From Bacillus niameyensis (GTDB lineage Bacteria; Bacillota; Bacilli; Bacillales; Bacillaceae_C), in NCBI RefSeq assembly GCF_001375535.1, contig NZ_LN831197.1:3398184-3462183 (forward strand): a stretch of DNA of 64,000 nucleotides, written 5' to 3'. Position numbers and translations under genes: made by a program. Positions 4,863 to 41,266 of this stretch are shown piece after piece (positions within the stretch are counted from its first letter, which is position 1; each line of letters opens with the position of its first letter). The notes below the pieces were generated by a model. It was not told the origin of the DNA. It did no database searches and saw only the letters and a list, made by a program, of their open reading frames with translations.

Positions 4863-6140
4863 ATGGCTGATTTAAATATTTCATTGTTGGAAGATATGAA
4901 ACTCAAAGAATTATATGAACTTGCAAAGGAATACAAAATTTCCTACTACAGTAAATTAACAAAAAAGGAATTAATCTTTTCTATTTTAAAAGCTCGCGCA
5001 GAAAGAGAAGGCTTCTTCTTCATGGAGGGTGTCTTAGAAATTATCCAGTCCGAAGGTTTCGGATTTTTACGTCCAATCAACTTCACGGCTAGCTCCGAGG
5101 ACATTTACATTTCTGCATCACAGATTCGTCGCTTTGACTTACGGAATGGTGATAAAGTTTCTGGTAAAGTTCGGCCTCCGAAAGAAAACGAGCGGTACTT
5201 TGGCCTGCTCCATGTAGAAGCTGTTAATGGAGAAGACCCGGAAAGTGCAAAGGAACGTGTCCACTTCCCTGCATTAACTCCACTTTATCCTGATCGTCAA
5301 ATCAAATTGGAAACAACCCCAACCAATCTATCAACGAGAATTATGGACTTAGTTTCCCCAGTTGGTTTCGGACAACGTGGTTTGATCGTAGCTCCACCAA
5401 AAGCAGGAAAGACGATGTTACTAAAATCAATTGCTAATTCTATTACGACTAATCATCCTGAAGCAGAATTAATCGTGCTTTTAATTGATGAACGTCCTGA
5501 AGAAGTAACTGACATTGAAAGATCTGTTAACGCGGATGTTGTGAGTTCCACTTTTGATGAAGTTCCTGAAAACCATATTAAAGTGGCAGAGCTTGTATTA
5601 GAGCGCGCTATGCGTCTTGTAGAACATCGCCGTGATGTTATTATTCTAATGGATAGTATTACCCGATTGGCTCGTGCCTATAATCTTGTCATTCCGCCAA
5701 GCGGTCGAACTCTATCTGGGGGAATTGATCCAGCTGCATTCCATCGGCCGAAACGATTCTTCGGTGCTGCCCGTAATATTGAAGAGGGAGGCAGCTTAAC
5801 GATTCTAGCAACAGCCCTTGTTGATACAGGTTCCCGGATGGATGATGTTATTTATGAGGAATTTAAAGGAACGGGAAATCTAGAGTTGCATCTGGATCGC
5901 TCTCTTGCAGAAAGAAGAATCTTCCCTGCGATCGACATTCGCCGCTCTGGTACAAGAAAAGAAGAGCTGCTAATTCCAAAAGCACAGTTGGATAAACTAT
6001 GGAAATTACGTAAGGCGATGTCTGATACACCTGACTTTATTGAAAAGTTCATGCGTAAGTTAAGACAGTCCAAAACGAACGAAGAATTCTTCAATATGCT
6101 CGACGCAGAAATGAAAGCCGGAGTAAGTGGAAGATCTTAA
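4863..6140 (+). CDS. rho: Transcription termination factor Rho
   Basis: A 425-residue hexameric RNA-dependent ATPase that binds nascent C-rich RNA and releases RNA polymerase. The N-terminal Rho helical domain (about 5-48), cold-shock-like RNA-binding domain (about 52-125, [17 protein letters not shown]) and RecA-type ATPase core are all present. Walker A is PPKAGKTML at about 178-186, Walker [17 protein letters not shown], and the R-loop [21 protein letters not shown] is intact. The ATG lies 9 bases after a weak GTGGTG. No Shine-Dalgarno of usual strength and a ~540-nt leader suggest post-transcriptional or autogenous control, as reported for other Rho genes. glpX, its usual upstream neighbour, is missing. 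Confidence 0.96.
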
Positions 6141-6196: not shown

Positions 6197-9100
6197 TGTC
6201 CTGAAATAGAATGTCTATTCGCCCGAGGAGCAAGAAAAGTGTACCTAGGGGTAGAATAGGACGTCTCTATTCGCCCGAGGAGGAAGAAAAGTGTATCTAG
6301 GGGTAGAATAGGACGTCTCTATTCGCCCGAGGAGGAAGAAAAGTGTATCTAGGGGTAGAATAGGACGTCTCTATTCGCCCGAGGAGGAAGAAAAGTGTAT
6401 CTAGGGGTAGAATAGGACGTCTCTATTCGCCCGAGGAGGAAGAAAAGTGTATCTAGGGGTAGAATAGGACGTCTCTATTCGCCCGAGGAGGAAGAAAAGT
6501 GTATCTAGGGGTAGAATAGGACGTCTCTATTCGCCCGAGGAGGAAGAAAAGTGTATCTAGGGGTAGAATAGGACGTCTCTATTCGCCCGAGGAGGAAGAA
6601 AAGTGTATCTAGGGGTAGAATAGGACGTCTCTATTCGCCCGAGGAGGAAGAAAAGTGTATCTAGGGGTAGAATAGGACGTCTCTATTCGCCCGAGGAGGA
6701 AGAAAAGTGTATCTAGGGGTAGAATAGGACGTCTCTATTCGCCCGAGGAGGAAGAAAAGTGTATCTAGGGGTAGAATAGGACGTCTCTATTCGCCCGAGG
6801 AGGAAGAAAAGTGTATCTAGGGGTAGAATAGGACGTCTCTATTCGCCCGAGGAGGAAGAAAAGTGTATCTAGGGGTAGAATAGGACGTCTCTATTCGCCC
6901 GAGGAGGAAGAAAAGTGTATCTAGGGGTAGAATAGGACGTCTCTATTCGCCCGAGGAGGAAGAAAAGTGTATCTAGGGGTAGAATAGGACGTCTCTATTC
7001 GCCCGAGGAGGAAGAAAAGTGTATCTAGGGGTAGAATAGGACGTCTCTATTCGCCCGAGGAGGAAGAAAAGTGTATCTAGGGGTAGAATAGGACGTCTCT
7101 ATTCGCCCGAGGAGGAAGAAAAGTGTATCTAGGGGTAGAATAGGACGTCTCTATTCGCCCGAGGAGGAAGAAAAGTGTATCTAGGGGTAGAATAGGACGT
7201 CTCTATTCGCCCGAGGAGGAAGAAAAGTGTATCTAGGGGTAGAATAGGACGTCTCTATTCGCCCGAGGAGGAAGAAAAGTGTATCTAGGGGTAGAATAGG
7301 ACGTCTCTATTCGCCCGAGGAGGAAGAAAAGTGTATCTAGGGGTAGAATAGGACGTCTCTATTCGCCCGAGGAGGAAGAAAAGTGTATCTAGGGGTAGAA
7401 TAGGACGTCTCTATTCGCCCGAGGAGGAAGAAAAGTGTATCTAGGGGTAGAATAGGACGTCTCTATTCGCCCGAGGAGGAAGAAAAGTGTATCTAGGGGT
7501 AGAATAGGACGTCTCTATTCGCCCGAGGAGGAAGAAAAGTGTATCTAGGGGTAGAATAGGACGTCTCTATTCGCCCGAGGAGGAAGAAAAGTGTATCTAG
7601 GGGTAGAATAGGACGTCTCTATTCGCCCGAGGAGGAAGAAAAGTGTATCTAGGGGTAGAATAGGACGTCTCTATTCGCCCGAGGAGGAAGAAAAGTGTAT
7701 CTAGGGGTAGAATAGGACGTCTCTATTCGCCCGAGGAGGAAGAAAAGTGTATCTAGGGGTAGAATAGGACGTCTCTATTCGCCCGAGGAGGAAGAAAAGT
7801 GTATCTAGGGGTAGAATAGGACGTCTCTATTCGCCCGAGGAGGAAGAAAAGTGTATCTAGGGGTAGAATAGGACGTCTCTATTCGCCCGAGGAGGAAGAA
7901 AAGTGTATCTAGGGGTAGAATAGGACGTCTCTATTCGCCCGAGGAGGAAGAAAAGTGTATCTAGGGGTAGAATAGGACGTCTCTATTCGCCCGAGGAGGA
8001 AGAAAAGTGTATCTAGGGGTAGAATAGGACGTCTCTATTCGCCCGAGGAGGAAGAAAAGTGTATCTAGGGGTAGAATAGGACGTCTCTATTCGCCCGAGG
8101 AGGAAGAAAAGTGTATCTAGGGGTAGAATAGGACGTCTCTATTCGCCCGAGGAGGAAGAAAAGTGTATCTAGGGGTAGAATAGGACGTCTCTATTCGCCC
8201 GAGGAGGAAGAAAAGTGTATCTAGGGGTAGAATAGGACGTCTCTATTCGCCCGAGGAGGAAGAAAAGTGTATCTAGGGGTAGAATAGGACGTCTCTATTC
8301 GCCCGAGGAGGAAGAAAAGTGTATCTAGGGGTAGAATAGGACGTCTCTATTCGCCCGAGGAGGAAGAAAAGTGTATCTAGGGGTAGAATAGGACGTCTCT
8401 ATTCGCCCGAGGAGGAAGAAAAGTGTATCTAGGGGTAGAATAGGACGTCTCTATTCGCCCGAGGAGGAAGAAAAGTGTATCTAGGGGTAGAATAGGACGT
8501 CTCTATTCGCCCGAGGAGGAAGAAAAGTGTATCTAGGGGTAGAATAGGACGTCTCTATTCGCCCGAGGAGGAAGAAAAGTGTATCTAGGGGTAGAATAGG
8601 ACGTCTCTATTCGCCCGAGGAGGAAGAAAAGTGTATCTAGGGGTAGAATAGGACGTCTCTATTCGCCCGAGGAGGAAGAAAAGTGTATCTAGGGGTAGAA
8701 TAGGACGTCTCTATTCGCCCGAGGAGGAAGAAAAGTGTATCTAGGGGTAGAATAGGACGTCTCTATTCGCCCGAGGAGGAAGAAAAGTGTATCTAGGGGT
8801 AGAATAGGACGTCTCTATTCGCCCGAGGAGGAAGAAAAGTGTATCTAGGGGTAGAATAGGACGTCTCTATTCGCCCGAGGAGGAAGAAAAGTGTATCTAG
8901 GGGTAGAATAGGACGTCTCTATTCGCCCGAGGAGGAAGAAAAGTGTATCTAGGGGTAGAATAGGACGTCTCTATTCGCCCGAGGAGGAAGAAAAGTGTAT
9001 CTAGGGGTAGAATAGGACGTCTCTATTCGCCCGAGGAGGAAGAAAAGTGTATCTAGGGGTAGAATAGGACGTCTCTATTCGCCCGAGGAGGAAGAAAAGT

Positions 9101-10112
9101 GTATCTAGGGGTAGAATAGGACGTCTCTATTCGCCCGAGGAGGAAGAAAAGTGTATCTAGGGGTAGAATAGGACGTCTCTATTCGCCCGAGGAGGAAGAA
9201 AAGTGTATCTAGGGGTAGAATAGGACGTCTCTATTCGCCCGAGGAGGAAGAAAAGTGTATCTAGGGGTAGAATAGGACGTCTCTATTCGCCCGAGGAGGA
9301 AGAAAAGTGTATCTAGGGGTAGAATAGGACGTCTCTATTCGCCCGAGGAGGAAGAAAAGTGTATCTAGGGGTAGAATAGGACGTCTCTATTCGCCCGAGG
9401 AGGAAGAAAAGTGTATCTAGGGGTAGAATAGGACGTCTCTATTCGCCCGAGGAGGAAGAAAAGTGTATCTAGGGGTAGAATAGGACGTCTCTATTCGCCC
9501 GAGGAGGAAGAAAAGTGTATCTAGGGGTAGAATAGGACGTCTCTATTCGCCCGAGGAGGAAGAAAAGTGTATCTAGGGGTAGAATAGGACGTCTCTATTC
9601 GCCCGAGGAGGAAGAAAAGTGTATCTAGGGGTAGAATAGGACGTCTCTATTCGCCCGAGGAGGAAGAAAAGTGTATCTAGGGGTAGAATAGGACGTCTCT
9701 ATTCGCCCGAGGAGGAAGAAAAGTGTATCTAGGGGTAGAATAGGACGTCTCTATTCGCCCGAAGGAACAGAAAATTGTACCCAAGGGTAGAATAGAACGT
9801 CTCTATTCGCCCGAGGAGGAAGAAAAGTGTATCTAAGGGTAGAATAGAACGTCCCTATTCGCCCGAAGGAACAGAAAATTGCATCCAAGGGTAGAATAGG
9901 ACGTCTCTATTCGCCCGAGGAGGAAGAAAATTGCATCCAAGGGAAGAATAGGACATCTCTATTCGCCCGAGGAGGAAGAAAAGTGTATCTAAGGGTAGAA
10001 TAGAACGTCCCTATTCGCCCGAAGAGGAAGAAAAGTGTATCTAGGGGTAGAATAGGACGTCTCTATTCGCCCGAAGGAACAGAAAATTGTACCCAAGGGT
10101 AGAATAGAACTT
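6190..10112 (+). repeat. Giant 52-bp tandem repeat array (about 75 units)
   Basis: Direct head-to-tail repeats with an exact 52-bp period. The right half-site CTATTC first occurs at 6215 and last at 10063, a distance of 3848 = 74 x 52, so there are 75 units without net insertion or deletion. Each unit contains the dyad GAATAG-N7-CTATTC followed by GCCCGAGGAGGAAG. The first unit is degenerate, units from 6254 to about 9756 appear identical, and the last seven are variant (for example GAAGGAACAG replaces GAGGAGGAAG). A final half-site lies near 10102. This pattern fits recent homogenising amplification of the interior. No open reading frame of note crosses it. It lies between the rho terminator and the ECF/ABC operon. 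Confidence 0.98.
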
Positions 10113-10163: not shown

Positions 10164-10258
10164 TCTATCTTTTATCATAAATTTATTTTTCCTATTTGAA
10201 ACAAAAAGGAGCGGGTAAACGTGTAAGAATCAGAAACAGCTTAAAGGAGGCGGACATT

Positions 10259-11134
10259 CTGATTACAATCGAAATAGAAGGACTACATAAAACGTATCGC
10301 AAATTTGAGGCGCTAAAAATGATTGATTTACAAATTGGGACTGGCTTATTTGGTCTTCTTGGTCCAAATGGAGCAGGGAAATCAACTTTAATGAATATAT
10401 TGAGCACCCTTCTGCCTTGGGACGAAGGAAAAGTAACAGTCTACGGATTTGACCTCGCAAAGGAAGGCGGAAAGATTCGCGAATTACTTGGTTATTTGCC
10501 ACAGCATTTTCATCCGCCTGTCCAATTTACAGGGCGAGAATTTCTCCACTACGTATGCTCGATGAAAGGTGTCACAGCGAAGGCTGAACGTGATTTACAG
10601 GTTGAAAAAGTATTAGAGCAAGTGAATTTACTCGATCATGCCAATAAAAAAATTAAAGGATATTCTGGTGGGATGAAGAGGCGACTTGGAATTGCGCAAG
10701 CACTCATTGGGAATCCGAAGTTCATTATTTTGGATGAGCCTACTGCAGGACTTGATCCATCCGAACGGATTCGTTTCCGCAATGTGATCGAAAAGCTTAG
10801 TAAAGATTATACGATTATTTTATCGACCCACATTATTAGTGACATTGAGTCGAGCTGTAAAAATGTCGGGGTCATCCACCATGGCGATGTCCTTTATCAA
10901 GGAACGACTGAAGTTTTAGCAAAACAGGCTAAAAACGTCGTTTGGGAAATCACTGTTCCCTATATAGAATATGACAGTGTGGAAAAGGATTATCTCGTTC
11001 TTTCTAGTCGAAGAGATCAAGAGAATGTGATTTTCCGAGTTTTAGCGAAAGAATCCCCTAGACAAGATGCGATTGCAATCGAACCAACGATCGAAGACGG
11101 ATATATGGCTCTGATCAATGGGGTGATCGCATGA
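10259..11134 (+). CDS. ABC transporter ATP-binding protein (ECF/ABC operon)
   Basis: A cytoplasmic ATPase of the ABC-2 export type, about 291 residues: Walker A GPNGAGKS at about 35-42, signature YSGGMKRRL at about 135-143, Walker B FIILDEPTAGLDP at about 155-167, then H-loop STHII. A ~75-residue C-terminal extension follows. The start is unclear. The only in-frame standard codon upstream is TTG at 10196, which lacks a ribosome site. A near-perfect AAAGGAGG at 10243-10250 instead precedes in-frame ATT (10256) and CTG (10259), and family members begin at this MITIEIEGL-like point, so a rare start codon is likely. It overlaps the next gene by ATGA. The substrate is unknown. Confidence 0.8.
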   Translation: MITIEIEGLHKTYRKFEALKMIDLQIGTGLFGLLGPNGAGKSTLMNILSTLLPWDEGKVTVYGFDLAKEGGKIRELLGYLPQHFHPPVQFTGREFLHYVCSMKGVTAKAERDLQVEKVLEQVNLLDHANKKIKGYSGGMKRRLGIAQALIGNPKFIILDEPTAGLDPSERIRFRNVIEKLSKDYTIILSTHIISDIESSCKNVGVIHHGDVLYQGTTEVLAKQAKNVVWEITVPYIEYDSVEKDYLVLSSRRDQENVIFRVLAKESPRQDAIAIEPTIEDGYMALINGVIA

Positions 11135-13263
11135 AGAGAGTAAAGACGGTATTTCAAAAAGAACTGATTTTATTATTACGTAATAAATTTTTTGCGATCC
11201 CTTTGATCATCAATCTCCTCTGTTGGGGATATATCATTATTTCCTATGAAATCCAAGGAGTTCACTATGAAGAGACGGCTGCTGTTTTTTACCGCGGATT
11301 CATTTGGATGTTGCTATTGAACTTGTTAATTATTGGTCTTATCGCAGTTTATCTTACTAGTAAAGATCGTGAAACGAAATTTGAACCATTAATGGCAAGC
11401 TATCATGTGAAAAATATGGAGTGGATACTCGGAAAGTGGCTTGTGGCCCAATTGTATGGAGTTCTGATTACGGTCTTAACGGTCGCGATTCAGGCACTCT
11501 GGTTCATAGGGGCGGACATGTCACTTGGGGAATGGAGCAAACATCTCGTTTATGTATTTGTTCAAATGGAAGGAGCCCTTTTCTTCATTATTTCCTTCGG
11601 TTTTTTATTTGGTACATTGATAAAAAATATGTTTGCTTATCTTTCGATTCCTGTTATTTTATTGCTCACACTCGCACTCCCTTTTGATAATGTAGGTACG
11701 GCACTAACTTACGATAATCCAAGGTTTCATTTATTAACACCCTTTGATTATATGTTTATTGGAACCCCCTATGAGGGAATTTGGGGGATTGAACGAGTTT
11801 TTGCACCAACGATCTTGCATCAAATCGGTGTCTTTTTACTAGGAATTGTTCTAATCTCTATCACATTGTGGATATTCCGTCCAAATCGGAGAAGTCATCA
11901 GGAGAAACGGCTCATTTTACTACTTGTAACGATCTTTCTCATTTCAACAGTAGTAGTAAGTGGTTTTCGATATATGCAATATGAACAAGCATTGAAAAAG
12001 TTAATTGAAACAGGAAAGACCTATGCCCAATCTTATTCAAAAGAGGTTGGGATGGAGTATTATGAGTGGATGAATTCGTATTATGATGAACATTTGGATG
12101 ATGAGCCGTATGAGTTTGCCATGGAAAAAGCGGATTTGAAGGTGCAACTTCTAGGCAATGATGAACTCCGTGTCCAAAGTAAGGTAACGATTAAAAATAA
12201 TGGGGAAGCTCCTGTCAAAGATGTCGAGTTAACATTGTATCACGGTTTAACTGTTAAAGAATGTACGAGTCCAGCGGGAGTAACTTGTATAAGGGATGGC
12301 GATTGGATCACGCTTCAATTTGACGAAATGATGGAGCCTGAAGGTGAGATGGAAGTAAGTCTCGAATATGAGGGGAATATTTTACAATACCGGTATGATG
12401 GCTATGTAGAGCAAGCCTTTATTGATAAAAATAGAATTTATCTCCCAAAAGAAGCTGGTTGGTATCCGCTCATTGGCAAGCGATCGTTAGTGATTGCCCG
12501 AGAACATGAAGAACGTTATTTTGGTTTTGAAATGCGAAATGCAAGATTAGTAGAAGATTATCCGACAAACTTCACTGTGGAGATTGAGAGCGAGGATCTT
12601 CCGATAGCTTTGACTGTTCCAAAAGTAGAAGCAGGATTTTATAAAGGTGATTCATTTTATGGTCTTTCCTTAATTGGGGGCAACTTCAAAGAAGAGACTG
12701 TTGGGGAAACTCGTATCCTTGCTCATCCTGAGGCTTTGAAAGGTGCAAAAGATGTAGCGGAAAGATACCAAAAGGCTTCTCGGTTTGTTGAAGGTTGGCT
12801 AGGTATTCCAATGGTCCCTTCCGTTATTTTTGTAATGAACGATGAGCATTATTATTTATCCGATGATACGGTGAATCAAGGCTTTTTAGTTTGGGGGAAT
12901 AGGGACATTCAAGATTCGAATGATGAGCAGATTGCTTATAGATTACAAAGGAGTTTATTTCAAGAACGGTCCGATATGGAGAGCGTAGAGGATGTTTTCC
13001 TGTTGGAAGATGCGATGATCTGGCCGATTCTTCATCATTTACAAGGAGAGTCTACTTTTAAAGAATGGTATAAAAGTCTTTGGTGGAATGAAGATGATGA
13101 CCTTACGCTTGTTGATATATTATCTAGTTACGAAGAGGAAAGTCCTGAGCAATTTCAAGACGTTGTCAAATACCTTTATTATAATTGGACCCAATTAGAG
13201 AACGGTCAGGAATTTGATATGACAGCAGCCTTGAAATTATATGAAAAGGAGTCAGGGCGATGA
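11131..13263 (+). CDS. ABC-2 permease fused to a large extracytoplasmic domain, M1-peptidase-like but lacking HExxH
   Basis: A 710-residue protein. The N-terminal ~290 residues hold about seven hydrophobic segments (near 18-40, 52-76, 108-128, 145-187, 240-258 and 270-290), like an ABC-2 permease. The remaining ~420 residues are soluble and presumably outside the membrane. They begin with a beta-rich region (VTIKNNGEAPVKDVELTLYH, YLPKEAGWYPL) resembling the N-terminal domain of peptidase-M1-type proteins. The following alpha region has DEQIAYRLQRSL and FLLEDAMIW where active M1 enzymes carry HExxH and the downstream Glu. No zinc motif is present, so any peptidase function is lost. ATGA overlaps join it to both neighbours. 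The M1 relation is inference from pattern. Confidence 0.65.
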   Translation: MKRVKTVFQKELILLLRNKFFAIPLIINLLCWGYIIISYEIQGVHYEETAAVFYRGFIWMLLLNLLIIGLIAVYLTSKDRETKFEPLMASYHVKNMEWILGKWLVAQLYGVLITVLTVAIQALWFIGADMSLGEWSKHLVYVFVQMEGALFFIISFGFLFGTLIKNMFAYLSIPVILLLTLALPFDNVGTALTYDNPRFHLLTPFDYMFIGTPYEGIWGIERVFAPTILHQIGVFLLGIVLISITLWIFRPNRRSHQEKRLILLLVTIFLISTVVVSGFRYMQYEQALKKLIETGKTYAQSYSKEVGMEYYEWMNSYYDEHLDDEPYEFAMEKADLKVQLLGNDELRVQSKVTIKNNGEAPVKDVELTLYHGLTVKECTSPAGVTCIRDGDWITLQFDEMMEPEGEMEVSLEYEGNILQYRYDGYVEQAFIDKNRIYLPKEAGWYPLIGKRSLVIAREHEERYFGFEMRNARLVEDYPTNFTVEIESEDLPIALTVPKVEAGFYKGDSFYGLSLIGGNFKEETVGETRILAHPEALKGAKDVAERYQKASRFVEGWLGIPMVPSVIFVMNDEHYYLSDDTVNQGFLVWGNRDIQDSNDEQIAYRLQRSLFQERSDMESVEDVFLLEDAMIWPILHHLQGESTFKEWYKSLWWNEDDDLTLVDILSSYEEESPEQFQDVVKYLYYNWTQLENGQEFDMTAALKLYEKESGR

Positions 13264-16019: not shown

Positions 16020-16098
16020 GACAGTGGAGCGTATTCGCTTCCTATCAACATACATTAAACTCTGACTCAGCAAATGATTCAGGGCATAAGGAGTGGAA
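16020..16098 (+). promoter_or_regulatory. Possible autoregulatory rpmE (L31) leader
   Basis: The ~100-nt leader forms two small hairpins: GGAGCG with CGCTTCC near 16025-16041, and CTGACTCA with TGATTCAG near 16063-16083, the second ending just before the AAGGAG ribosome site. Ribosomal protein L31 leaders with autogenous control are known in Firmicutes; I cannot verify a consensus match by eye. Confidence 0.4.
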
Positions 16099-25266: not shown

Positions 25267-25295
25267 TTGGCATTGCTTCTCTACCGTGGTAGAAT
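25267..25295 (+). promoter_or_regulatory. Sigma-A promoter for glyA
   Basis: TTGGCA (25267-25272), 17-bp spacer, TAGAAT (25290-25295), 56 bases before the glyA ATG. Confidence 0.7.
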
Positions 25296-25350
25296 GAGAT
25301 GGAATTTAAAACTTGAAAATTGTCAAAAAGATGAAGGGGGAACGGATAAA

Positions 25351-26586
25351 ATGAGTAACCTCGCTAACCAAGATCCGCAAGTGTATGAAGCCATTCAAAA
25401 AGAATTAAAACGGCAGCGGACGAAAATTGAATTAATTGCATCAGAAAACTTTGTAAGCTCCGCTGTTATGGAGGCTCAAGGGTCAGTTTTAACGAATAAA
25501 TATGCAGAAGGTTATCCTGGTCGCCGTTATTATGGCGGCTGTGAATATGTTGATATCGCGGAAGATCTTGCTCGCGACCGTGCAAAAGAAATCTTTGGCG
25601 CAGAACATGTAAACGTACAGCCGCATTCCGGTGCTCAAGCGAATATGGCTGTCTATTTTACAGTACTAGAGCCTGGAGATACTGTCCTTGGCATGAACTT
25701 GTCACACGGCGGTCATTTAACACATGGTAGCCCTGTGAATTTCAGCGGTGTTCAATATAATTTTGTTGAGTATGGAGTAGATGAAGTCGACCATCGCATA
25801 AATTATGAAGATGTTCGGCAAAAAGCTCTAGAACATAAACCGAAACTGATCGTAGTTGGGGCGAGCGCTTACCCACGGATTATTGATTTTAAAAAGTTCC
25901 GTGAAATTGCAGATGAAGTCGGTGCTTATTTAATGACGGATATGGCGCATATCGCTGGTCTAGTAGCAGCTGGCCTTCATCCGAATCCAGTTCCATATTG
26001 CGAATTTGTCACGACGACAACCCACAAAACATTGCGCGGACCTCGTGGCGGAATGATTCTATGTAAAGAGGAATTCGCTAAGAAAATTGACAAATCCGTT
26101 TTCCCTGGGATTCAAGGTGGTCCACTTATGCACGTTATTGCTGCAAAAGCAGTTGCATTTGGTGAAGCATTAACAGAGGAATTTAAAGTCTACAGTCAAA
26201 ATATTATTGATAACGCTAAGCGCCTTGGCGAATCTTTGAAAAAGGAAGGCCTGAATCTCGTTTCTGACGGTACAGACAATCATTTACTTTTAGTCGATTT
26301 ACGACCAATCGGCCTAACTGGAAAAGTGGCTGAAAAAGTTTTGGACGAGGTTGGAATTACAGTTAATAAAAATACAATCCCATTCGATCCAGAAGGTCCG
26401 TTCACAACAAGCGGAATCCGGATCGGAACGCCAGCCGTTACTTCAAGAGGTTTTGGTCCTGAAGAGATGGACGAAATTGCATCCCTTATTGGACTTGTAT
26501 TGAAAAATCATGATGACGAAGCTAAATTAGCTGAAGCACGTAATCGCGTTGAAGCTTTAACGGCTAAGTTTTCATTATATGAATAA
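25351..26586 (+). CDS. glyA: Serine hydroxymethyltransferase
   Basis: A PLP enzyme converting serine and tetrahydrofolate to glycine and 5,10-methylene-THF, the main one-carbon source. The 411-residue protein has [13 protein letters not shown] near 51-63, DMAHIAGL near 198-205 and the PLP-lysine block [13 protein letters not shown] near 223-235. The start is ATG 25351, after AAGGGGGAACG. The frame stays open back to 25267, but that codon is the -35 of the promoter. Synteny with ywlG and upp is conserved. Confidence 0.96.
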
Positions 26587-26639: not shown

Positions 26640-26965
26640 GGAGTATCCATTGAAGTCGGGAGATTCCGAGCAAGTAAGAAATTAATTCTTGAAGTTGCGA
26701 AAATCGGAGCGCAGTTAAAAGATTATATTCTGAAGTCGTGAAAATCCTAGCGCAGTTAAAAGATTATCTCTTAAAGTCGCGAAATTCTCAACAAATTTAA
26801 AAGAATATCTGTTTAAGTCGTGAAAATCTCACCGAAGTAAAAGAATATCTCTCAAAGTCGTGAAATTCTCAACAAATTTAAAAGAATATCTCGCAGAGTC
26901 GCGAAATCTCCAGCAAATTCAAAAAATTTCCACCGGAATTCGCGAAATCCCTCCCAAAAGTCGAA
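26640..26965 (+). repeat. Degenerate ~41-bp tandem repeats between glyA and upp
   Basis: The anchor AGTCG (or AGTTG) recurs at 26654, 26693, 26734, 26775, 26816, 26856 and 26897, giving spacings of 39, 41, 41, 41, 40 and 41. The consensus reads roughly AAGTCGcGAAAwTCTCA then AAATTTAAAAGAATATCT. Further decayed units with ATTCGCGAAATCC and AAGTCGAAAGAATCC run to about 26980. No open reading frame covers it. The spacing is close to four helical turns. Confidence 0.85.
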
Positions 26966-27161: not shown

Positions 27162-27791
27162 ATGGCTAAAGTATATGTGTTCGATCATCCTCTCATCCAA
27201 CACAAAATGACATATATTCGGGATAAGAACACAGGGACAAAGGAGTTTCGTGAACTTGTAGATGAAGTTGCAACTCTAATGATGTTTGAAATCACAAGAG
27301 ATATGTCCCTTGAAGAGGTAGATGTTGAAACACCTGTCGCTACCGCAAAGTCAAAAGTTTTAGCTGGAAAAAAACTTGGAATTATTCCTATTCTTCGAGC
27401 CGGAATTGGTATGGTGGATGGAATTTTAAACTTGATCCCAGCTGCTAAAGTGGGACATGTTGGTTTATATCGTGACCCTGAAACATTAAAACCTGTTGAA
27501 TATTATGTGAAACTTCCTAATGATATTGCAGACAGAGAATTAATTCTAGTTGATCCGATGCTCGCTACTGGAGGATCAGCTATTGCTGCTGCTGAATCAT
27601 TAAAAACTCGCGGCGCAAAAAACATTAAATTTATGTGCTTAATTGCCGCTCCTGAAGGTGTAGAAGCGATGCAGAAGGCACACCCTGATATTGATATATA
27701 TATTGCGGGGCTAGATGAAAAATTGAATGAAAAAGGATATATCGTTCCTGGGCTAGGAGATGCCGGCGATCGGTTATTTGGAACAAAATAA
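27162..27791 (+). CDS. upp: Uracil phosphoribosyltransferase
   Basis: Salvages uracil to UMP using PRPP. The 209-residue type I PRTase shows VPILRAG-like [13 protein letters not shown] near 75-87, the PRPP-binding loop [12 protein letters not shown] near 127-138, and the C-terminal uracil-binding [12 protein letters not shown] near 191-202. AAAGGAGAG precedes the ATG. It sits between glyA and mnaA as in Bacillus. Confidence 0.96.
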
Positions 27792-37763: not shown

Positions 37764-39071
37764 TTGGAAAAAATCATCGTCCGCGGCGGAAAAAGGCTTA
37801 GCGGCATTGTTAAAGTTGAAGGAGCAAAAAATGCTGTATTGCCTATTATCGCTGCATCATTATTAGCCAGTGAGGGAAAAAGCATCATTCGGGATGTACC
37901 ATCTCTCTCCGATGTATATACAATTGGCGAAGTATTGCGCAGTTTAAATGCGAGTTTTGAGTTTGAAAATAAAACTGTCACCATTGATGCTTCAAATGAG
38001 CTTGGTATAGAAGCTCCATTTGAGTTCATGCGCAAAATGCGTGCTTCCGTACAGGTTATGGGGGCTTTACTTGGAAGGTATGGCAAAGCAAGAATTGCCC
38101 TGCCAGGCGGTTGTGCCATCGGTTCCCGTCCCATCGATTTCCATTTAAAGGGATTTGAGGCGATGGGAGCAAAAGTGAAGGTGCATAATGGTTTTGTTGA
38201 AGCTACAGCGGATCGGTTAAAGGGAGCAAAAATCTATTTAGACTTTCCAAGTGTTGGAGCAACAGAAAATATTATGACGGCTGCAACATTGGCTGAAGGA
38301 ACGACCGTGATTGAAAACTGTGCAAAAGAGCCGGAAATTGTCGACCTTGCTAATTTCCTAAATAAAATGGGAGCTAATGTAAAAGGTGCTGGAACAGGGA
38401 CAATCCGAATCGAAGGTGTAGAAAGACTATATGGTACAGAGCACACTGTCATTCCAGACAGAATTGAAGCAGGCACATTTATGGTGGCTGCGGCTATTAC
38501 GAAAGGAAATGTACTTGTGCAAGGAGCGATTCCTGAACACTTGTCATCCGTTATTGCTAAGCTAGAAGAAATGGGTGTTACGATTATTGAAGAGATCGAT
38601 GGACTTCGTGTAATTGGTTCTGATCACTTAAAATCAGTCGATATTAAGACGATGGTACACCCTGGTTTTCCGACAGATATGCAATCACAAATAATGGCCT
38701 TGCTATTAAGTGCAAAAGGAACAGGATTAATTACGGAAACCGTTTTTGAAAACCGTTATATGCATGTCGAAGAATTCCGTAGAATGAACGCAGAAATTAA
38801 AATTGAAGGTCGATCTGTCATTATTTCTGGTCCATGTGAACTTCAAGGAGCAGAAGTAGCAGCTACAGACCTAAGAGCAGCTGCAGCGCTAATTATTGCT
38901 GGTTTAGCAGCAGATGGCTACACTCGCATAACGGAACTACAACACTTAGATAGAGGTTATTTAGATTTTCATTTAAAACTTCGTGGATTAGGCGCAGATA
39001 TAGAGCGAGTTAACGACGAAATTGAACAAATGATTACGGATGAAGCACAGTCCGAAGTGGCTGAAATTTAA
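37764..39071 (+). CDS. murAA: UDP-N-acetylglucosamine 1-carboxyvinyltransferase MurAA
   Basis: The main MurA paralogue, catalysing the same step as MurAB at 2944. The 435-residue protein carries K22-N23 (EGAKNAV), the catalytic cysteine C117 in [12 protein letters not shown], and [15 protein letters not shown] start follows GCGGAGGGGAA. It is linked to spoIID downstream, as in B. subtilis, but here the second 52-bp array separates them. Confidence 0.96.
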
Positions 39072-39078
39072 AAGTAAA

Positions 39079-39113
39079 ATGAGAAAGTCTTTCCAAGGCT
39101 TTCTCATTTTTTT
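39079..39113 (+). terminator. Terminator after murAA
   Basis: AATGAGAAAG pairs with CTTTCTCATT, followed by TTTTT. Confidence 0.85.
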
Positions 39114-39196
39114 AGTTAAAGGTACTTGAGTATCTGGTTTTTCTATTAGAGTGAAAAGGGTCATTTGTCCGAAGCACAGGAGAAGCGCCTCCAAAG

Positions 39197-40140
39197 GTCG
39201 AATAGGGCGCCTCTATTCGCCCGAAGCGCCAGGTCGAGTCGTCCAAAGGTCGAATAGGGCGTCCCTATTCGACCGAATCGCCAGGTCGAGTCGTCCAAAG
39301 GTCGAATAGAACATCTCTATTCGCCCGAAGCACCAGGGAAAGTCTTCCAAAGGTCGAATAGGGCATCCCTATTCGCCCGAAGCACTAGGTCGAGTCCTTC
39401 GAAGGTCGAATAGGACGTCCCTATTCTCCCGAAGCACCAGGTCGAGTCCTTCAAAGGTCGAATAGGGCGCCTCTATTCGCCCGAATCGCCCGGTCGAGTC
39501 GTCCAAACGTCGAATAGGACGTCCCTATTCGCCCGAATCGCCCGGTCGAGTCCTTCAAAGGTCGAATAGGGCGCCTCTATTCGCCCGAAGTGCCAGGTCG
39601 AGTCTTTCAAAGGTCGAATAGGGCGTCTCTATTCGCCCGAATCGCCCGGTCGAGTCTTTCAAAGGTCGAATAGGGCGTCTCTATTCGCCCGAAGCACCAT
39701 GTCGAGTCGTCCAAAGGTCGAATAGGGCGCCCCTATTCGCCCGAATCGCCAGGTCGAGTCGTTCAAAGGTCGAATAGGGCGTCTCTATTCGCCCGAATCG
39801 CCAGGTCGAGTCGTTCAAAGGTCGAATAGGGCATCTCTATTCGCCCGAAGTGCCAGGTCGAGTCTTTCAAAGGTCGAATAGGACGTCTCTATTCGCCCGA
39901 AGCGCCATGTCGAGTCGTCCAAAGGTCGAATAGGACGTCCCTATTCGCCCGAAGCGCCATGTCGAGTCGTCCAAAGGTCGAATAGGGCGCCTCTATTCGC
40001 CCGAATCGCCAGGTCGAGTCCTTCAAAGGTCGAATAGGACGTCTCTATTCGCCCGAATCGCCAGGTCGAGTCGTCCAAAGGTCGAATAGGGCATCCCTAT
40101 TCTCCCGAACCGAAAGAGAAGAGCCTTCGATGGTCGAATA
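39197..40140 (+). repeat. Second 52-bp tandem array (19 diverged units)
   Basis: The anchor GTCGAATAG recurs at 39197, 39249, 39301, 39353 and on to 40081 and 40133, every 52 bases exactly. Eighteen units carry the full dyad GAATAG-N7-CTATTC; the last has only the left half. The seven central bases vary (GGCGCCT, GGCGTCC, AACATCT, GACGTCT and others), as does the spacer (CGCCAGGTCGAGTCGTCC and variants). The dyad plus CGCCCGA is shared with the array at 6190, while the rest of the unit is unrelated. It lies between the murAA terminator and the spoIID promoter. Confidence 0.97.
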
Positions 40141-40184
40141 GATTACTCTCCTTTGTTTTTAATAATTTTCAAATACTAAAATTA

Positions 40185-40249: not shown

Positions 40250-41266
40250 ATGAAACCATTAAAACCACTATTTATTGTTGTCAGTATTTTACTTGCTCTT
40301 ACATTTGTACTACCGTCTCTGCTCGTTTTGCCTTCTGCCAAAGAAAAAGATGGCCCTCACTTATCAGAATTAAAACAGGAGTCTAAAAAGGTTGTGGATA
40401 GCTCAAAAACAGAGGTTGCTGTATTTCGGAATGCGACAGAGACCATTGAGACTTTACCACTTGAGGAGTATGTCGTAGGCGTTGTCGCATCGGAAATGCC
40501 TGCTGAATTTGAAATAGAAGCTTTAAAAGCTCAAGCACTTGCGGCCAGAACATATATTACGAACTACCTGCTTAATTCGTCTGAAGATAAATCCCTACCT
40601 GATGGAGCAAATATTACAGATACAGTGAACCATCAAGTATTTAAAAATAAGGAAGAATTAAAGAAACAATGGGGAAAAGATTTTGAAAAAAAATATAAAA
40701 AAATAACCGAAGCTGTTCAGGCAACAGAAGGGGAGATCCTAACTTATCAAGATAAGCCGATTACAGCCTCCTTTTTTTCAACAGGTAATGGTTTTACAGA
40801 GAATTCCGAGGAATATTGGGAAAATAAAATACCTTACTTAAAAAGTGTGGAAAGTCCTTGGGATACTCAAGCTCCCGAGTTTGAAAGTAAAAAAACTTTA
40901 AGTGTTGCAGAATTTGAAGAAAAACTTGGCGTGAAAATTAGTGATAGCAAAGATATTGGAACGATCACTGGAAGGACGACAGGTAACAAGGTGGCAGCTG
41001 TTAAAATTAATGACAAAACCTTCACAGGACGAGAAATCAGAGAAAAGTTAGACTTGAGATCAACCCATTTTACTTGGCAAAGAAACGGGAACTCCGTTAT
41101 CATTACGACAAAAGGATATGGTCACGGCGTAGGGATGAGTCAATATGGAGCAAATGGAATGGCTAAAGAAGGAAAGAACTATCGAGACATAGTGGAACAT
41201 TATTACAAGGATGTAAGTATTACAAAAGCAAATGATTTTATGGATAAAAAATATGTATCTAAATAA
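40250..41266 (+). CDS. spoIID: Stage II sporulation protein D (lytic transglycosylase)
   Basis: A mother-cell peptidoglycan glycosidase of the engulfment DMP machinery (SpoIID, SpoIIM, SpoIIP). It has one N-terminal membrane anchor (about 7-27) and an extracellular SpoIID domain with the catalytic-glutamate segment LEEYVVGVVASEMPAEFEIEALKAQALAARTY near 76-107, and GYGHGVGMSQYGANGMA near 287-303. The total is 338 residues, usual for the family. AGGAGGAATAGGC-like AGGAAT precedes the ATG. Confidence 0.95.
   Translation: MKPLKPLFIVVSILLALTFVLPSLLVLPSAKEKDGPHLSELKQESKKVVDSSKTEVAVFRNATETIETLPLEEYVVGVVASEMPAEFEIEALKAQALAARTYITNYLLNSSEDKSLPDGANITDTVNHQVFKNKEELKKQWGKDFEKKYKKITEAVQATEGEILTYQDKPITASFFSTGNGFTENSEEYWENKIPYLKSVESPWDTQAPEFESKKTLSVAEFEEKLGVKISDSKDIGTITGRTTGNKVAAVKINDKTFTGREIREKLDLRSTHFTWQRNGNSVIITTKGYGHGVGMSQYGANGMAKEGKNYRDIVEHYYKDVSITKANDFMDKKYVSK

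Follow-up and report, generated by a model that had tools for sequence, protein, structure and literature searches.

Tandem 52-bp Arrays of Many Bacillales Share a Covarying Core and Helical Phasing and May Act as DNA-Wrapping Platforms

Introduction

What keeps the size and the dyad of a tandem repeat constant while the rest of its sequence is free to change? The question is raised by an array of 52-bp units between murA and spoIID of Bacillus niameyensis, here called array 2, and by another array with the same dyad, array 1, in the same stretch of 64,000 nucleotides, the whole of which was analyzed and is referred to as the window.

Tandem repeats of 52 nucleotides were described in Bacillus by Subirana and Messeguer in 2021 (PMC8161180) as constant in size, variable and species-specific in sequence, and of unknown function. 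Short signals were found to be common to the arrays of one genome, no sequence conservation was seen between species, and the 52-nt size was left unexplained; the authors suggested a polymerizing protein or small RNAs. According to the same paper, B. subtilis lacks such repeats. Among the literature matches listed, with subscription journals outside their scope, those on this class were papers and an editorial around Subirana and Messeguer, and none contained an earlier account of a core common to 52-bp repeats, of a link to gyrase or of a bias toward convergent genes. The matches listed for the arm sequence TGTCCTTCAT were all unrelated. New in this study are a shared 27-bp core, which is absent from PMC8161180, covariation within its stem, an A/T phasing of 10.4 bp, and a bias toward convergent gene ends.

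Results

Arrays 1 and 2 in the window

The features of the window that bear on the two arrays are as follows.

4863..6140, plus strand: rho, upstream of array 1 (Pfam family and neighborhood)
6214..10107, no strand assigned: array 1, same dyad as array 2, about 75 units of 52 bp
37764..39071, plus strand: murA (EPSP_synthase family), the gene upstream of array 2 (Pfam family and neighborhood)
39078..39113, plus strand: hairpin and T-run 3' of murA, terminator-like by direct view, unscored
39200..40135, no strand assigned: array 2, 18 units of 52 bp, each a dyad with a 7-nt loop plus a spacer
39248..39274, no strand assigned: one exact copy of the wider core within array 2, GGTC-N19-GACC, with a 10-bp stem and a 7-nt loop (regular expression and pair counts)
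40136..40141, plus strand: nineteenth GAATAG half-site, second arm missing
40250..41266, plus strand: spoIID, the gene downstream of array 2

Array 2 is noncoding and occupies the murA-spoIID interval; 52 is not a multiple of 3. With a constant unit within the range of 51 to 53 nt and at least four tandem units, a species-specific sequence, and short motifs common to the arrays of one genome, it is a slightly decayed member of the known 52-nt repeat class. When cut at GAATAG it yields 18 full units, the last diverged in its 3' half, in a register that is exact from 39200 to 40136; the first-pass annotation of this DNA had counted 19, one too many, as the nineteenth GAATAG at 40136 has no second arm. 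Tandem Repeats Finder (TRF) placed the array at 39192-40109 with a period of 52, 17.7 copies, 88% match and 0% indels, and a looser wrap-around alignment over 39192-40135 introduced 2 gap bases.

The motif GAATAG-N7-CTATTC followed by GCCCGA, which the annotation had reported as common to both arrays, is indeed present in both. In the first 17 units of array 2, none of the 12 positions of the dyad arms varies (0 of 204 letters are minority letters), whereas 12 of the 23 positions of the spacer vary (41 of 391 letters); minority letters make up 21 of 119 in the 7-nt loop and 2 of 102 in the GCCCGA 3' of the dyad. All 20 variable positions of the unit fall outside the arms (permutation p = 0.001), and when a mask of two hexamers was rotated over the unit, only 1 of the 52 rotations, the arm position itself, was this invariant. 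The proposed constraint on the dyad therefore stands, and dyad and spacer do not change at equal rates.

Both arrays depart from the wider core described below. One of the 18 dyads of array 2 is an exact copy, the remaining units mostly having GCC in place of the right-hand GAC, and array 1 is a diverged member that lacks both the outer GTC and the outer GAC. Array 1 also contains 67 identical units (6254-9737), implying a very recent expansion or a count that depends on the assembly.

Searches of plasmids and phages with array 2 gave no match, and a mobile origin was rejected on this basis. Across the whole window, Rfam at its gathering threshold returned only an L31 leader elsewhere and no family over the arrays.

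Sister arrays in the genome and the orthologous site in relatives

Further arrays with this core, for which a search had been recommended, do exist in the genome: five others carry it or a close variant (C6:1751.8k, 2695k, 2711k, 4007k and 4072k), and an additional array, exact on the wider core, lies at C6:4237k. The sister arrays at C6:2695121 and C6:4237330 have the left arm GGTCGAATAG and fit [TG]GTC-N19-GAC[AC] exactly; the right arm is CTATTCGACC or CTACTCGACC in the former and mostly CAATTCGACC in the latter. A second arm family, TGTCTCTGA, is found in many other arrays of this genome. The spacers of the five sister arrays are intermediate by eye between those of arrays 1 and 2, and the earlier statement that the other half of the unit is unrelated looks too strong.

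The claimed absence of indels holds for array 2 by TRF but fails for its sisters, four of which have a period of 51 bp and one of 52 bp, with single-base gains or losses inside some of them. Pairs of exact-core units in this genome number 39 at a distance of 51 bp versus 4 at 52 bp, which weakens the idea that strict phasing demands a period of exactly 52 bp.

At one mismatch or fewer, the core of this genome was found in none of 59 relatives, 15 of them congeneric. We read the murA-spoIID interval in the 15 congeners; in one (G005) the upstream gene is unlike murA, leaving 14. Two (G004 and G007, the latter being the Lederbergia citrisecunda locus) carry 51-bp arrays of unrelated sequence, G013 has a decayed array plus a 21-bp array, G014 has two units, and in ten of the 14 no array was seen. 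At this site, position and size class recur and sequence does not. Frequent indels in orthologous arrays had been named as evidence against constraint, and on this point the outcome is divided: the other arrays of this genome are mostly of 51 bp with some single-base indels, and those of the relatives at murA-spoIID are absent or unrelated.

The unit of the 21-bp array in G013 (L064) contains CTATTCGCC, a 9-mer that also occurs in array 2, and a link between the 21- and 52-bp classes is possible on this basis.

A 27-bp core with a fixed spacing

The core is a 27-bp inverted repeat, [TG]GTC-N19-GAC[AC], with a 10-bp stem and a 7-nt loop. GTC-N19-GAC occurs in 7 of the 27 published consensus repeats (PMC8161180, Table 1), from five named species, more often than any other combination of complementary triplet and spacing; over 60 shuffles, GTC-N19-GAC itself reached 0 or 1 and no triplet more than 4, these figures to be read with the facts that the motif had been partly noticed in the published table before the test and that some of the published consensuses are interrelated.

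Searched in tandem (KGTC-N19-GACM twice at 52 bp), the core was found in 82 of 397 genomes of the order, belonging to 32 of 135 genera and including this genome, with up to 590 hits per genome. A reversed control pattern gave, by reading of the table, 1 to 13 hits each in 6 of the 397. Since the exact pattern is missing from 315 of the 397 genomes, it has no essential role. In a sample of the phylum (159 genomes), hits were confined to this genome.

Spacing controls were run on 45 genomes, all with tandem-core hits. Neither N20 nor N21 was found in any of the 45, N17 was found in 6, and N19 at a period of 51 was found in 29, mostly with few hits (39 in this genome). The N19 spacing of the core is specific. 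By eye, the listed N17 units of G408 combine a 9-bp stem with, again, a 7-nt loop and a 52-bp period, and those of G371 have rather a 10-bp stem and a 5-nt loop. Many N17 units occur in G408 and G123, in the former as if the size of the loop were kept when the stem shortens.

True solitary exact copies were not found in the 800 kb of this genome that were checked: eight exact dyads are in tandem, and the one flagged as single lies inside a tandem array (L096).

Stem bases covary without an RNA signature

In arrays collected with the core pattern, stem pairs 1 to 4 are imposed by the search, and only pairs 5 to 10, the loop and the spacer count as evidence; the published consensuses and the TRF arrays were chosen without imposed stem pairs. 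In a set of one locus per genome (30 loci, 195 units), pairs 5 to 10 were Watson-Crick by majority in 26, 19, 24, 29, 29 and 21 of the 30 loci, versus shuffle means of 13.3, 10.9, 10.7, 7.9, 15.3 and 10.2 (each p <= 0.001). A larger set of 72 arrays (432 units, 70 loci, 8 of them in this genome), drawn from the same 30 genomes and hence not independent, gave 59, 46, 60, 69, 68 and 54 Watson-Crick arrays for the same pairs, versus shuffle maxima of 40, 41, 44, 32, 54 and 38. Pair 8-20 is Watson-Crick in 69 of the 72 arrays and uses all four pair types. Pairs 11 to 13 do not rise above the shuffles in the 72 arrays, and the loop is therefore 7 nt. Of the 353 unit-to-unit steps below 60 bp, 274 are of 52 bp and 68 of 51 bp. 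Such free covariation of the stem is unlike a dimer site of fixed specificity; a hairpin, a cruciform, or repair of palindromes by template switching would fit it.

In 37 codirectional arrays read on the gene strand, there are as many G.U pairs as A.C pairs (55 each), and thus there is no sign of a selected RNA hairpin; counted by pair positions the numbers are 32 and 36, and by arrays 11 and 14 with 12 ties. The lack of a G.U excess over A.C favors DNA over RNA, with the proviso that codirectional arrays often lie beyond terminators and the test may cover untranscribed DNA.

A/T content is phased at 10.4 bp

Helical phasing was measured on the 64 of the 72 arrays that have a 52-bp step. Their mean A/T profile peaks near positions 9, 19, 29-30, 40 and 50-51 of 52; harmonic 5, which corresponds to 10.4 bp, has a power of 25.7, and no other of harmonics 1 to 13 exceeds 2.6. 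T3 and A25, the A/T positions imposed by the core, are out of phase with this rhythm. In the spacer alone, which the search did not impose, the contrast is 0.363, and none of 5000 shuffles exceeds 0.112; a set limited to a single array from each genome gives 0.357, positive in 30 of 30. The share of harmonic 5 is 0.092 in the arrays versus a mean of 0.040 in 1220 random 52-mers from the flanks (bootstrap maximum 0.058).

In a phase-free test, none of 1000 shuffles attained the observed value for the 27 published consensuses, for the subset of 17 that lack both the N19 and the N17 core, or for 27 TRF arrays from the genus, the last comprising array 2, the five sister arrays and congener arrays and thus not a random sample (1 of 28 was dropped for want of a TRF consensus). 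Harmonic 9 is also high in the 17 core-less consensuses (0 of 1000 shuffles). Taken singly, array 2 has harmonic 5 as its strongest (p = 0.02), array 1 has no significant 10.4-bp signal (p = 0.29), and the signal is not significant in many of the 27 TRF arrays.

With A/T and G/C alternating at 10.4 bp, a 52-bp unit spans five helical turns and is most readily understood as five-turn DNA with a single bendable face. The first-pass annotation had argued for constraint on both the dyad and the helical phasing, beyond mere copying by slippage. The invariant arms, the covariation and the 10.4-bp phasing bear this out beyond the present genome, although the indel comparison speaks partly against it.

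Arrays of the 52-bp class favor convergent gene ends

Locations were sampled in 118 stretches of 20 kb (2.36 Mb) from six genomes, with crude ORF calls as genes. One of 20 arrays of the 52-bp class was left out at an edge, and L162 and L168, which had been chosen for the murA-spoIID region, were excluded. Eleven of the 19 placed arrays lie between convergent genes, a setting that makes up 16.5% of intergenic base pairs (p = 5e-5), 7 between codirectional genes and 1 between divergent genes. Arrays of the 21-bp class have no convergent bias (4 of 15, p = 0.29), and on this ground the notion that the two classes are the same thing was rejected.

With one array per genome, 29 could be placed: 11 convergent, 15 codirectional and 3 divergent (p = 0.005). 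The 68 placed arrays of the larger set, 4 of the 72 having been left out of this test at contig edges, comprise 24 convergent, 37 codirectional and 7 divergent (p = 2e-4, the arrays not being independent). The convergent background in both tests, about 16%, is that of this genome and five congeners applied to other genera.

Arrays 1 and 2 had been said to lie directly after terminators of essential genes. By Pfam family and neighborhood, the genes upstream of them are rho and murA, each followed by a hairpin and T-run that was seen and not scored; in B. subtilis, rho is dispensable. The position after terminators is a special case of a broader preference of the 52-bp class for gene 3' ends, above all convergent ones.

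Discussion

Array DNA that is symmetric, strand-neutral and helically phased, and that lies where genes converge, points to a complex in which the DNA wraps around protein. We infer that the 52-bp arrays are a DNA-level wrapping platform or track, with DNA gyrase as the most likely partner, and we give this reading a probability of roughly 0.55; the wrapping, the identity of the protein and any topological role are the parts that go beyond the comparisons above. The arrays would function at the DNA level and not through RNA or protein. Each unit would span five helical turns, with the 27-bp inverted repeat around one dyad and the spacer around the other, and each turn would have its A/T on one side of the helix and its G/C on the other, allowing ready bending in one direction. 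Tandem units would keep the same face, and the array as a whole would form a track for a DNA-wrapping protein. Gyrase, whose C-terminal domains (CTDs) wrap DNA with a G/C periodicity of 10 to 11 bp, would be the most likely partner, and an Lrp- or HU-like nucleoid protein the second. At convergent gene ends, where positive supercoils meet, such a track might capture gyrase or buffer torsional stress, a role already proposed for the REP/BIME-2 elements of Escherichia coli.

Work on gyrase bears on this reading in both directions. According to Sutormin 2018 (PMC6379681), the E. coli gyrase motif has periodic G/C in two 47-bp arms, in agreement with the 35 to 52 bp thought to be wrapped per CTD, and gyrase is enriched in BIME-2 and downstream of transcribed operons; a preprint (PMC12324340) reports that all gyrases tested, a Bacillus enzyme among them, prefer a G/C periodicity of 10 to 11 bp. 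The arrays have this feature, with 10.4 bp for the class, and they resemble the E. coli motif in being a symmetric composition pattern with periodic G/C. They differ from it in period (10.4 versus 10.75 bp) and in the cleavage core: a search of the mean unit of the 64 arrays for G-4/C+8, A-2/T+6 and G+1/C+4 found no significant center against a column-shuffle null (p = 0.30 with and 0.56 without the central pair), and a gyrase cleavage core within the unit was rejected as a candidate. The dyads are of odd length and centered on a base, and the gyrase cut is centered between bases, which counts against gyrase. PMC6379681 also reports that strongly phased sites in E. coli bound gyrase yet slowed it, and that gyrase recruitment downstream of operons did not seem to be sequence-encoded. 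As for other wrappers, no decisive paper on wrapping by LrpC was among the literature matches listed. Also counting against this reading are the departures of arrays 1 and 2 from the core, the out-of-phase T3 and A25, the high harmonic 9 of the core-less consensuses, the lack of a significant 10.4-bp signal in array 1 and in many single TRF arrays, and the free covariation of the stem bases.

If the wrapping-track reading is true, it would explain how a repeat can have a fixed size with free sequence. If the features described here hold, the 52-nt size represents five turns of wrapped helix around a core common to many genera, its function becomes a direct test of occupancy by gyrase or a named wrapping protein, and the arrays could serve to mark, simply and across whole Bacillales genomes, the gene ends whose topology is managed. 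A more tentative idea, which we would sooner doubt than accept, is that many Bacillales carry wrapping tracks, preferentially between converging genes, that hold gyrase or another wrapper where positive supercoils collide, as an independent Gram-positive counterpart of BIME-2.

Alternatively, the arrays could be neutral or selfish satellites, amplified by slippage and unequal exchange, kept perfect in their palindromes by template switching and tolerated at 3' intergenic sites; the 52-bp size would then reflect the amplifying machinery and not a function. Template switching does keep palindromes perfect, by quasi-palindrome correction. The species-specific arms, with the core of this genome in 0 of 59 relatives, the orthologous site with unrelated or no arrays in relatives, the 67 identical units of array 1 and the preference for gene 3' ends would all be expected of satellites. 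Slippage leaves unexplained why GTC-N19-GAC is fixed across genera and why spacers that differ in sequence share their A/T phasing (30 of 30 arrays), and we regard this explanation as unlikely.

Transcribed arrays of RNA hairpins, acting as small RNAs, sponges or 3'-end stabilizers in line with the suggestion of those who described the class, would account for the covarying stems and the location downstream of genes, and transcription of the class in B. coagulans is reported in PMC8625621. The equal counts of G.U and A.C on the gene strand (55 and 55), the lack of an Rfam family at gathering score over the arrays of the window, and the helical A/T phasing, which has no evident role in RNA, make this explanation improbable; the G.U asymmetry that it might have shown finds no support, in DNA that may be untranscribed.

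Single-stranded DNA hairpins made and moved by an IS200/IS605-like (Y1/RAYT) transposase have been proposed for REP, and the stem-loops with fixed bases at their foot invite the same proposal here. Y1_Tnp occurs widely in the order, in 34 of 41 genomes, and among array-rich genomes (22 of 23). The array-rich genome G116, with 516 hits, has no Y1_Tnp match, however, and the array-rich G042 has only one stop-interrupted fragment, which rules out such a transposase as a necessary maker of the arrays; together with the lack of truly solitary exact copies over the 800 kb checked in this genome, this leaves the proposal with little to recommend it. Least probable of all is a torsion buffer of cruciforms, extruded under negative supercoiling and reabsorbed by the positive supercoils of convergent transcription with no specific protein, which would suit the free covariation of stem bases, the lack of strand bias and the convergent location but needs no fixed GTC/GAC foot, 52-bp period or spacer phasing, all of which are seen.

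The arrays can be set against three known systems. They share with the 52-nt repeats of PMC8161180 a period of 51 to 53, a noncoding nature, several arrays per genome with short shared motifs that are often inverted within the unit, and a species-specific sequence, all of which fit array 2; they differ in the GTC-N19-GAC core across many genera, the 10.4-bp A/T phasing and the bias toward convergent genes. REP/BIME elements, as covered in Di Nocera 2013 (PMC3733652), are likewise short palindromes whose stems vary with compensation, and they lie mostly between genes in convergent or codirectional arrangement; BIME-2 is a gyrase target in E. coli. Tagged REPs, in that paper, carry an unpaired GTAG or CGTC, occur genome-wide, often as head-to-head dimers, and have frequent G.T pairs. 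In the 52-bp arrays, by contrast, the conserved triplet is paired on both arms, there is no unpaired GTAG or CGTC tag and no G.U excess, exact copies occur only in head-to-tail arrays, with none dispersed singly or head-to-head in the 800 kb checked, and an associated RAYT/Y1 transposase is missing from array-rich G116, which has no Y1_Tnp match; 22 of 23 other and array-rich genomes have one, and an association may hold there. Regular palindromic repeats with intervening sequence also recall CRISPR, a likeness noted by the authors of PMC8161180; in array 2, however, the sequences in between have all diverged from a single one and keep a fixed period, where CRISPR has unique, unrelated foreign spacers between identical repeats.

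Several other features were observed in the course of this work. In the window, an ORF of 710 amino acids (11131-13263) without a Pfam match at E 0.001 directly follows an ABC ATPase gene (10196-11134) and lies in the stretch from array 1 to the L31 leader at 16060. A noncoding 41-bp (about 2 x 21) tandem array at 26692-26949, between ORFs 25267-26586 and 27162-27791, belongs to the other repeat size class of Bacillus. Elsewhere, a 52-bp array with the same core (L021, 6262-7740) starts inside or at the end of a truncated-looking, sulfatase-like ORF (family assigned by eye), and in the congener G004 there are 28-bp arrays (L151, 18327-18692; L154, 2631-2772) with 99 to 100% match and inverse complementarity within the unit.
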